This document shows positions 10,325 through 13,042 of a DNA stretch of 64,000 bases, piece after piece; within the stretch, counting starts at the first letter, position 1; each line of letters starts with the position of its first letter. The stretch lies in the NCBI GenBank assembly GCA_021325235.1, contig JAJPHN010000006.1, positions 248,001-312,000 on the forward strand, in the 5' to 3' direction. This stretch comes from Terriglobia bacterium. GTDB taxonomy: Bacteria > Acidobacteriota > Terriglobia > Bryobacterales > Bryobacteraceae. Below the pieces are notes generated by a model. It had not been told where the DNA came from and did no database searches. It worked only from the letters and a program-made list of their open reading frames with translations. Both the position numbers and the translations under genes were made by a program.

Positions 10325-10708
10325 TCAGGCTGCGCTGAGCATTTCGTCGTCGAACATTTCTTCGCCTTCGGCCTGCAGGCGGTCGGCTTCTTCCTGGCAC
10401 TGGATGCAGTACGGCGCCCACGGTACGGCGGCCAGGCGTTTCGGGCTGATCTCCTCATCGCAGTGGAGGCAGGTTCCAAAGGAGCCGTCCTCGATCCGCC
10501 GCAGAGCTGAACGAACATTCCGAAGCAGATTAGACTCGCGATCCAGATTGCGGATGGCGAGCTCACGCTCGGAAGCATGCTGCACCTGGTCGAGAGCGTC
10601 CGCGGCCTGCTCGATGGCGATCGCGTCGCGATTGCGGACAATCTGTTCCAGTTCGTCCTGTTTCTGTTCCAGGATCTTTTTGAAGTTGTTCAGTTCTGTT
10701 TTGGTCAT
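10325..10708 (-). CDS. DksA/TraR-family C4 zinc-finger protein
   Basis: 127 residues. The N-terminal two thirds form a long alpha-helical coiled-coil-like region (LNNFKKILEQKQDELEQIV onward). It is followed by the family zinc finger CLHC (about residues 80-83) and CIQC (about 101-104) within GTCLHCDEEISPKRL and PYCIQCQEEAD. DksA-type proteins enter the secondary channel of RNA polymerase and adjust initiation, with ppGpp in the case of DksA. This one is a short member and could equally be a DksA-like paralogue of unknown target. A clear ribosome-binding site (AAGGAGAAA) precedes the ATG, and a strong terminator follows, so it is a single-gene unit. Confidence 0.93.
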   Translation of the reverse strand: MTKTELNNFKKILEQKQDELEQIVRNRDAIAIEQAADALDQVQHASERELAIRNLDRESNLLRNVRSALRRIEDGSFGTCLHCDEEISPKRLAAVPWAPYCIQCQEEADRLQAEGEEMFDDEMLSAA

Positions 10709-11213
10709 TTTATTTTTCTCCTTCTTTAAACCGACTAGCCATGCTCACATTCGAAAGGTTTGAAGCAGCCAAGTCATACGCTTATGACGTAGGAAGCATC
10801 AAAAGGGTTCAAGAACCGCAGCACAAAAAACCGGGTCGAGTGCCACCGCTCGTTTACTAGTACGAACCGAGTGGAACGCGCGCGGCGTCTTTCTGTTCGA
10901 GACAGAGAAGACGAAAGACTCGCAGCCGGATCCGGGAAAAACACCGGGTGACTCCGACGGTCGAGAGAGTGCCCGAGAAGCCAGCGCTTTTCGGTTCTGA
11001 AAATCATAACACAGCCCCTGAGCAATTCAAACACCAACCGCTAAAACCGCTGAAACGGCCTATTTTCCGGGCCTTCTGTTGAGTAACAGTCGGGCGGGGG
11101 AGCAAAAAATCTCAGGTACAGGTGGGAAGAAAGTGCGGGAAGCGGAAGAGAATGGATAGGACAGGGACGAAGCGGTAGAGTGGGTCGGGGATGTTTCCAG
11201 AAGAGGGAATCAG
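10709..11213. other. Intergenic region between the divergent DksA-like and SelW-like genes
   Basis: About 500 bases without a convincing gene. An 87-codon frame on the minus strand (10774-11037) is rich in Arg and Ser, has no ribosome-binding site and resembles nothing known. A perfect inverted repeat, GTCATA-CGCT-TATGAC (10773-10788), lies about 65 bases upstream of the DksA-like start and could be an operator or a leader hairpin. A small hairpin CTGTT-GAGT-AACAG is at 11076-11089. No promoter is clear. Confidence 0.5.
10773..10788. repeat. Perfect 6-bp inverted repeat upstream of the DksA-like gene
   Basis: GTCATA and TATGAC flank the four bases CGCT. Its position about 65-80 bases before the start codon suits an operator or 5' leader hairpin. 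No regulator can be named. Confidence 0.4.
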
Positions 11214-11432
11214 ATGACGATTGAAATCAAGCGCTGCTTTTTTTGAGTGGACTTAAAACAAGAGGCCGTGCGTCTCAAGGATGCGATTGAACGAGAGTTG
11301 GGCGTTCCGGTACGAGTACGGGCAGGGGCGCCGGGATCGCTGCGAGTGCTGCGGGATGGCGAGCAGGTGTACTCGCTGAAGGAGGACGGACACGCGGCCG
11401 CGGAAGATGTCGTGGGCCGGCTGCGGCGCTAA
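11214..11432 (+). CDS. SelW/Rdx-family selenoprotein, TGA at 11244-11246 read as selenocysteine
   Basis: From the ATG at 11214 the frame reads MTIEIKRCFF, then TGA, then VDLKQEAVRLKDAIERELGV and on to a TAA at 11430-11432, giving 72 residues if TGA encodes Sec. The result is CFFU at residues 8-11, matching the CxxU/CxxC redox motif that follows the first beta strand in SelW, SelT, SelH and bacterial Rdx proteins. The rest fits the thioredoxin-like Rdx fold: helix EAVRLKDAIERELG, strand VPVRVRAG, then GSLRVLRDGEQVYSLKEDG and a final helix. A GAGGG ribosome-binding site lies 6 bases before the ATG. The only later in-frame start is GTG 11247, directly after the TGA, with no ribosome-binding site and no active-site motif. 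A candidate SECIS is at 11262-11276. The stop overlaps the convergent oxidase gene by 4 bases. A Cys/Sec oxidoreductase role is inferred from the family. Confidence 0.8.
11262..11276 (+). promoter_or_regulatory. Candidate bacterial SECIS stem-loop
   Basis: GAGGC (11262-11266) pairs with GTCTC (11272-11276), with one G-T wobble, around the five-base loop CGTGC. The stem begins 15 bases and the loop 20 bases after the TGA. The second loop base is G. Bacterial SECIS elements lie inside the coding region just after UGA, with a short apical stem and a G near the start of the loop for SelB binding. The fit is good, but a five-pair stem can arise by chance. Confidence 0.6.
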
Positions 11433-13042
11433 GCGGAACGTATCACGTACGGACGCATCATCTCGTTATCTTCGTGTTCGAGCATGTGGCAGTGCCAGAC
11501 GAAGCGGCCCGGTTCGGCATGGAATGGCGCGAGAATGCGGGTGACCTGGCCGGGAGGGCAGATGATGGTGTCCTTCCAGCCCTGTTCGGCAGCTGCGGCG
11601 CCGAGCAGCGGACCTGTGTAGAAAACTTCTGAGGTGGATTGATACCGGCGGACATCGAAGGCGCGCCGATCGAGCAGCTGGAAATGAATCGCGTGCAGAT
11701 GGATGGGATGAGTGTCCATGGTGGTGTTGACGAATTCCCAGATTTCGGCGGTGCCGCGGAGGGGATCTTCGCTCACCGGGTCCATGAAACGCTTGCCGTC
11801 GAGCAGCGTGCGCTGGAGGCGCTTGTCGGGTCCCATGAACTCGACGAGTTTGAGGCGGCGGGTTTTGACGGCGGCGGCCTCGGCAAGACGCGGAACAGAG
11901 GCGAGCGCGTTCGGGATTTCGCTGGTTTGACGGACGGGAGTGAGCGGGCGCTCAACGCGGAATTGGAGAACAAAGCCGGGCACGGGCGACCCACCGGAGG
12001 GATACGGTGCGCGGCCGTAGTTGACCAGATTCAGGCGGCGGCCCTGGCGTTCACGGAAGTCGATGAGCAGGTCGAGACGTTCGCCGGGGGCGAGGAGAAG
12101 CTCAGCGGATTCGACAGGCTCGCGCAGCAGGCCGCCATCGCTGGCGATGACGTAAAAGGGCTGCTCAGGGTGAAGCGCCATCTGGTAAATACGCGAATTC
12201 GAGGCGTTGAGCAGACGGAAGCGATACAGGCGCGGCTCGACAGTGAGATAGGGCCACACTTTGCCGTTCACTAGCACGTGGGTACCGAAAAATTCCGAGA
12301 CCCAGGGGTGATCGGCTGAGGGGCCAACGGGATAGGCGAGCTGGCCGCCAGCGTCGAGAATGCGGTCCTGCAGGATCAGCGGAATGTCGTAGGGGCCCGA
12401 GGGTAGATGGAGGCGCTGCTCATCGGGATCGTGAAGCAGATAGAGGCCGGCCAGACCCATCACGGCATTGAGGCGGGTGATGCCCATGGCATGGTCGTGA
12501 TACCAGAGCGTGGCGGTCGGCTGCCGGTTGGGATAGTGGGTGCGCTGGGCTTGTCCGGGGATAATCCAGTGCTCGGGGTAACCGTCGTTTTCAGCGGATA
12601 CGTGGCCGCCGTGCAGGTGGATGACGGTGCGCACTGCGGGGATATCAGGACCGGCTCCGTCGAGGGTGTGATCGACGGCGAGGGGATGCTGATCGGGGAG
12701 CCGGTTGTGCCACTCGATGTGGGCGGGGCAGCCGCGGGCAGCGACGAGCGTCGGGCCGGGAGTCGTTCCATTGAAACCCCAAACGAGAGAAGGCGGAAGA
12801 TCGCGATGCAGCTTCTGGCGGAACTGCGAGAGAATGATGCGCTCGGGAGCGGAGGTGTGGCCGGGAGTGGCAGGCAGACGGATGGCGCGCGGGATCGGCA
12901 AAGGATCAACGAACGGTTCGAGGCGGATGCCGAAGAGCGTATTCGTGGTGAGCTCATCGGACTGCGCGCGGGCAGTTCGGCGAGCGAGTGTGGCGGCGGC
13001 GAGAGAGCTGAGGATCTGGCGGCGGGTGAATCGCGGAGACAT
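11429..13042 (-). CDS. Tat-exported multicopper oxidase, CotA-like
   Basis: 537 residues. A twin-arginine signal (TRRQIL near residues 6-11, then SSLAAATLARRTARAQ) implies folded export with copper. All copper-binding motifs are visible: HLHGGHV, WYHDHAMGITRLN, HPIHLHAIHF and the type-1/trinuclear motif HCHMLEHEDNEM near the C-terminus. The WYHDHAM..TRLN segment closely resembles CotA laccase of Bacillus, and three cupredoxin domains fit the length. It would oxidise phenols, bilirubin-like compounds or metal ions with O2 as acceptor. Its ATG overlaps the stop of the propeller-protein gene as TGATG, so the two are coupled. Its 3' end overlaps the convergent SelW-like gene by 4 bases. Confidence 0.92.
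   Translation of the reverse strand: MSPRFTRRQILSSLAAATLARRTARAQSDELTTNTLFGIRLEPFVDPLPIPRAIRLPATPGHTSAPERIILSQFRQKLHRDLPPSLVWGFNGTTPGPTLVAARGCPAHIEWHNRLPDQHPLAVDHTLDGAGPDIPAVRTVIHLHGGHVSAENDGYPEHWIIPGQAQRTHYPNRQPTATLWYHDHAMGITRLNAVMGLAGLYLLHDPDEQRLHLPSGPYDIPLILQDRILDAGGQLAYPVGPSADHPWVSEFFGTHVLVNGKVWPYLTVEPRLYRFRLLNASNSRIYQMALHPEQPFYVIASDGGLLREPVESAELLLAPGERLDLLIDFRERQGRRLNLVNYGRAPYPSGGSPVPGFVLQFRVERPLTPVRQTSEIPNALASVPRLAEAAAVKTRRLKLVEFMGPDKRLQRTLLDGKRFMDPVSEDPLRGTAEIWEFVNTTMDTHPIHLHAIHFQLLDRRAFDVRRYQSTSEVFYTGPLLGAAAAEQGWKDTIICPPGQVTRILAPFHAEPGRFVWHCHMLEHEDNEMMRPYVIRSA

Follow-up and report, generated by a model that had tools for sequence, protein, structure and literature searches.

A small Rdx/SelW-like gene with an in-frame TGA in a Terriglobia bacterium, very likely encoding a divergent selenoprotein

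Results

The locus

We analysed a 64,000-nucleotide stretch of DNA (henceforth the window; G000:C41:248001-312000) from a Terriglobia assembly of 5.03 Mb in 60 contigs (95.7% complete, 4.8% contamination). At the locus studied here (Table 1), a single internal stop codon, the TGA at 11244-11246, lies in frame between an ATG at 11214-11216 and a TAA at 11430-11432. An earlier, sequence-only reading of this DNA had described an ATG preceded by a ribosome-binding site, a TGA following MTIEIKRCFF and a frame that stays open to 11432, and we found all of these in the sequence. When the TGA is read as selenocysteine (Sec), the product has 72 residues (MTIEIKRCFFUVDLKQEAVRLKDAIERELGVPVRVRAGAPGSLRVLRDGEQVYSLKEDGHAAAEDVVGRLRR). 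Without readthrough, the mechanical list of open reading frames retains a frame of 61 aa that starts at GTG 11247 and ends at 11432, i.e., the alternative start that had been named in that reading. Neither of the two neighbouring genes, encoding a DksA/TraR-type protein and a multicopper oxidase, suggests an operon.

Table 1 Features of the locus (positions in the window)
Feature	Position	Strand	Basis
DksA/TraR-type zinc-finger protein, neighbour outside the system	10325..10708	-	profile match
Shine-Dalgarno-like GAGGG, 6-base spacer to ATG	11203..11207	+	sequence
Selenoprotein gene (very likely), Rdx/SelW-like, 72 aa plus stop	11214..11432	+	frame, homologues, profiles, predicted fold
Cys8 codon TGC, first residue of CxxU	11235..11237	+	invariant in 12-row alignment
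TGA codon 11, putative Sec codon	11244..11246	+	frame and homologues
Putative bacterial SECIS hairpin, weak in window copy	11262..11276	+	alignment folding, recoding, published model
Multicopper oxidase, convergent neighbour outside the system	11429..13042	-	stop overlaps selenoprotein stop

Coding constraint on both sides of the TGA

We compared pN and pS in 12 sequences, namely 11 loci from the window's own family and L017, a locus from a Terriglobia MAG and the one relative among the matches listed from a named genome collection. Codons 2-10 had a pN of 0.10 against a pS of 0.91 (0.07 and 0.91 when only the window was compared with the others), and the 50 codons 3' of the TGA had a pN of 0.25 and a pS of 0.65. 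As a control, the 27 in-frame bases ending 3 bases 5' of the start gave a pN of 0.76 and a pS of 0.79 in the 11 family loci and L017. The best conserved part of the gene is hence the one 5' of the TGA, while the sequence 5' of the ATG looks neutral. Given this constraint on codons 2-10 and the unconstrained control, translation of the segment ahead of the TGA in frame with the remainder is very probable. A lack of upstream coding conservation in relatives, which the sequence-only reading had listed as evidence that would count against it, is thus the opposite of what was found.

Homologues and motif variants

Searching with the readthrough protein, we found homologues at 13 places, spread over 12 of the family's 237 genomes; the other 225, including 9 of the 17 genomes of the genus, gave none, and the gene is present in the remaining 8 of that genus. 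Each of the 13 places has exactly one TGA, and all translate with RCxxU at one position, a conserved Cys preceding the TGA by three residues; none of the 12 aligned family proteins departs from CxxU. One homologue (L025, from genome G035 of the same genus) encodes a protein identical to that of L017. The window's own genome gave no match to the Pfam Rdx model at E 0.001, consistent with the low score of the readthrough product against Pfam (see below); the gene was found instead by using the readthrough protein and an alignment (A1) as queries. A search of plasmid records returned no match.

The A1 profile matched 33 of 399 genomes of the class. Reading of 27 newly fetched class loci gave 8 with RCxxU, 11 with YCxxU (one of them HCxxU) and 6 with CxxC, plus L066, in which the N-terminus is absent in the frame read, and L050, described below. 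At the level of the phylum, 103 of 396 genomes were matched, and all 28 newly fetched loci (L076-L103) have CxxU with a TGA, one of them (L079) being of the RCxxU kind. In one class genome (G517) there were two profile matches with a TGA, on contigs C7 and C49. By eye, many of the 28 phylum loci have a longer GC-rich inverted repeat 3' of the TGA.

To place these variants, we built a tree from 60 of the 67 sequences, a motif filter having dropped L050, L062, L066, L067, L080, L095 and L096; the near-copies L025 and L030 had been left out beforehand. One branch (support 100/100) sets all 21 RCxxU rows apart, and another (100/99) does so for the six Cys rows; the tree rests on 68 columns, many of its other forks are weak and the bootstrap was not quite settled. 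The RCxxU motif continues as RCF in 19 of the 21 rows. The end branch of the window sequence (0.58) is among the longer ones in this clade.

It had been proposed that Cys or Sec homologues should align at position 11, and this is what the alignment gave: Sec in close relatives and Cys in distant homologues from the class (YCTQC, YCTGC; 6 of the 27 class loci read). Orthologues thus keep the in-frame UGA, and other homologues have Cys aligned with it, with L050 (genome G472) as the one exception. From base 1501 this locus reads MKIEIQTPLFPGDL..., in which Pro codons replace both the Cys and the Sec while the frame is otherwise kept. The sequence-only reading had counted a non-Cys sense codon in close relatives as a sign against it; the closer relatives are free of such a codon, and that part of the expectation stands, whereas L050, from another family, departs from it. 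L050 occupies the same place in gene order as the loci of f10 (another Terriglobia family), so we take it as a probable orthologue from which both residues have been lost. Its genome has selA (536 bits), and the locus keeps the hairpin pairing described below despite having no Sec.

Family membership and predicted fold

Each of the 12 aligned family members matched two family models: Pfam Rdx, with a best E of 1e-10 (E limit 1), and NCBIfam CXXU_selWTH, with a best E of 6.7e-11 (E limit 10). The window protein itself scored below the curated cut-offs, with E 0.011 and 16.3 bits against 22.6 for Pfam Rdx, 15.7 bits against 34.2 for TIGR02174 (CXXU_selWTH) and 18.4 bits against 88 for NF041051 (SelTWH_Campy). 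Five other RCxxU members were tested on TIGR02174, of which three pass (39.5, 34.5 and 36.6 bits) and two fall below; the first of these (P0001, 39.5 bits) is 60% identical to the window protein. As for NF041051 (SelT/SelW/SelH family), it was matched by all 12 aligned family members with an E limit of 10 (best 5.2e-11), but the same five other RCxxU members reached only 29-40 bits, where 88 are required, compared with 93.7 and 85.9 bits for two Acidobacteriota YCxxU proteins. A profile search also met chain 2ljk of MIEN1/C17orf37 (9.6e-6) and, with weaker scores, chains related to SelW.

The AlphaFold model of the window protein, predicted from a 2-row alignment (pLDDT 87.3, pTM 0.75), has the order beta-alpha-beta-beta-beta-alpha; the five models had pLDDT values of 87.3, 87.2, 66.0, 62.6 and 62.6. 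CFFU spans residues 8-11, between a strand at 3-7 and a helix from residue 12, so that in the model the Cys-Sec pair lies in the loop that follows strand 1. The predicted fold thus bears out the earlier description of an Rdx/SelW-like domain with CxxU after the first strand. Chains of 2ojl, 2oka, 2fa8, 3dex, 2obk and 2p0g (TM 0.76-0.84) fill the first 19 places among the PDB matches, and mouse SelW (2npb) comes at rank 23 (TM 0.62); only three structure matches reach E 0.001, as expected for 72 residues. The predicted fold resembles those of the six bacterial entries and of mouse SelW at an identity of 19-26%. Three of the six entries are named as SelW- or SelT/W/H-related, and all six, which we take to be Cys forms, are related in sequence to the CxxC Rdx protein encoded at L058 (E 1e-33 to 3e-28), a protein that passes CXXU_selWTH with 85.3 bits.

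Selenocysteine machinery and a second in-frame TGA

The sequence-only reading held that the organism makes selenoproteins and suggested a search for selA, selB, selC and selD. Each was found in the host assembly: selB on contig C22 (377 bits), selA on C42 (502 bits), selD on C8 (362 bits) and a tRNA-Sec with anticodon TCA on C46 (73 bits). A further piece of selB on C36 (L002) ends at the edge of its 9.7-kb contig, and a second selD lies on the 15-kb contig C3 (L034); both may be contamination or extra copies.

We also found a formate dehydrogenase alpha homologue (L070; G000:C42:47837-48580, minus strand) with one in-frame TGA, in the context NQARIUHSSTVPSLGTSFGRG, presumably the usual Sec site of FdnG-type enzymes. 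It is probably a second selenoprotein gene of this genome and, together with the machinery genes, supports the claim that the organism makes selenoproteins.

Across the family, selA scored above the cut-off in 187 of 237 genomes (any match in 209), and a match was present in all 12 genomes that carry the gene, in G041 as a partial match only. Among 27 genomes of the class searched for selA, 26 gave a match, 23 of them above the cut-off, and the one miss (G294) is 81% complete. As selA is common in the family, its co-occurrence with the gene says little.

A hairpin downstream of the TGA

Given an alignment of 20 sequences without any structure, RNAalifold picked a stem of 5 bp with a 5-base loop which, in the window, pairs 11262-11266 with 11272-11276 around the loop 11267-11271 (CGUGC), 20 bases 3' of the TGA. 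In these 20 sequences 96 of the 100 pair cells are formed, a value reached by 1 of 500 column shuffles. Changes on both sides were seen in only one of the five pairs, and 460 of the 500 shuffles do likewise. The pair concerned is the outer one, G-C in 13 and C-G in 5 of the 20 sequences (Fisher p 5e-4 in 19 of the 20, with L043 outside the table and relatedness uncorrected); on its 3' side this pair uses the third position of a Leu codon, at which the changes leave the protein unaltered. When the same question was put on the tree, one pair had changes on supported branches, with few independent changes and a sign test of p = 1.

Given the low power of the tree-based test, the argument for the hairpin is carried by synonymous recoding. 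Specifically, 101 of 105 cells pair in 21 sequences, against a mean of 70 and a maximum of 82 in 2000 synonymous recodings (with codon usage taken from five window ORFs only and relatedness uncorrected), and all five pairs form in 19 of the 21 sequences, against a mean of 2.7 in the recodings. For the window copy alone the result was not significant, 25% of its synonymous recodings forming all five pairs.

The hairpin varies in strength between sequences. The five pairs have a probability of at least 0.6 in 17 of the 21 sequences; L028 forms the hairpin as a minority fold, and in L043 and L047 it is partly broken. In 40 bases of the window RNA, the forced hairpin, which contains a G-U pair, has -6.1 kcal/mol against -8.7 for the minimum-energy fold, i.e., a cost of 2.6 kcal/mol. 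In its accessible text, PMC13188914 gives a bacterial SECIS model with a loop of 3-9 bases carrying a G in the first two, a stem of 4-16 bp, a position 16-37 bases after the UGA and an energy of at most -7.5. The window hairpin fits in stem (5), loop (5 bases, the second a G) and spacing (20), but not in energy, the limit being missed by both the window copy (-6.1) and L041 (-6.7). In this clade the hairpin therefore pairs far beyond what the protein-coding sequence demands, and the window's own copy is weak.

Discussion

We infer with high confidence that the gene encodes a small Rdx/SelW-like selenoprotein in which UGA codon 11 is decoded as Sec. The decoding would be carried out by SelB and tRNA-Sec(UCA), probably assisted by the hairpin just 3' of the UGA. 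The frame through the TGA, the machinery genes, the clade-wide hairpin and the membership of the family are direct results of the computation, as is the predicted beta-alpha-beta-beta-beta-alpha, thioredoxin-like fold with Cys-Phe-Phe-Sec in the loop after strand 1. As its most likely role, the Cys-Sec pair would act as a thiol/selenol oxidoreductase whose partner is a protein or a small thiol, via a selenenylsulfide.

Among the alternatives, the one that fares best concerns this role only and is compatible with Sec: the selenol might serve as a selenium- or metal-binding site instead of a redox catalyst. The function of SelW-like proteins is called unclear in the accessible text of PMC1088965, and L050, an orthologue by gene order, persists without Cys and Sec. 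We nevertheless consider a binding role unlikely, given that, in a thioredoxin-like model, CxxU occupies the loop leading from strand 1 into helix 1, and that it is invariant in the family alignment and is replaced by CxxC in the Cys branch.

A reading in which the TGA is a true stop is far less probable. The gene would then start at GTG 11247, where an open reading frame does exist, or be a pseudogene, and the codons ahead of the TGA would lie outside the protein; the weak hairpin of the window copy and its comparatively long end branch point the same way. These codons are, however, the most constrained part of the gene, next to neutral-looking sequence before the ATG, and it is on this constraint that we rejected a stop codon or pseudogene, a reading now largely refuted. 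It is further opposed by the TGA being kept at all 13 family places, by the Cys that replaces it in CxxC relatives and by the ribosome-binding site that precedes the ATG. Least credible of all is readthrough by suppression with Cys or Trp instead of Sec, since, although the computation reveals a conserved open frame and not the inserted residue, and the CxxC relatives suggest that Cys could work, the genome has selA, selB, selD and tRNA-Sec(UCA), the clade conserves a SECIS-like hairpin and an in-frame TGA also occurs in the genome's formate dehydrogenase alpha homologue.

SelW-like selenoproteins with CxxU are already known in bacteria. They were listed in 2006 (PMC1794560), were the most abundant selenoprotein family in the Sargasso Sea set (PMC1088965) and appear with PF10262 and CxxU in tables of 2022 and 2026 (PMC9312934, PMC13188914), as far as the accessible parts of these papers go. 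For Acidobacteria, the accessible text of PMC1794560 counts 4 selenoproteins in 3 families and that of PMC12013277 reports 3 selenoprotein genes in one Acidobacteriota genome, in both cases without their names. In the literature on selenoproteins of Acidobacteria or Acidobacteriota, mostly as open texts without supplements, we found no description of the RCxxU clade.

The window gene is very likely a real selenoprotein gene and a divergent member or subfamily of this known family. With bacterial SelW-like selenoproteins it shares the predicted Rdx fold, CxxU after strand 1 and an in-frame UGA followed by a hairpin; it differs in that its clade has RCxxU instead of YCxxU and lies on a separate, fully supported side of the tree, and in the below-cut-off scores of the window copy. 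Our analysis adds a well-supported clade of likely selenoproteins, the tested members of which score far below the NCBI seleno-specific SelW model. The number of matching genomes in the phylum, together with CxxU at every newly fetched phylum locus, suggests that TGA-bearing SelW-like genes are widespread in Acidobacteriota. Such genes may easily be truncated or dropped in annotation, and for the window gene the earlier statement that it is missed by standard annotation is plausible in view of scores below the Pfam and NCBIfam cut-offs.

A possible lead to the substrate of a family whose function is described as unclear (PMC1088965, accessible text) comes from gene neighbourhoods. In f10, an acyl-CoA dehydrogenase gene lies downstream on the same strand at 6 of 8 RCxxU loci (L042-L046, L048), and an SRPBCC (Polyketide_cyc2) gene lies upstream on the same strand at 5 of the 8 (L042, L043, L045, L046, L048), the Pfam identity having been taken from one neighbour of each kind. 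Neither gene was found within the flanks (mostly 1.5 kb) of the loci of f1, the window's own family, so this context holds for f10. We therefore offer only as a tentative idea, more doubtful than not, that the RCxxU clade is a separate Acidobacteriota selenoprotein subfamily with a job of its own, unlike that of classical SelW-like proteins; the f10 context would suggest a selenol-based redox carrier or regulator linked to acyl-CoA dehydrogenation. At two of these loci (L042 and L043), the stop of the SRPBCC gene overlaps the start of the selenoprotein gene by 4 bases.
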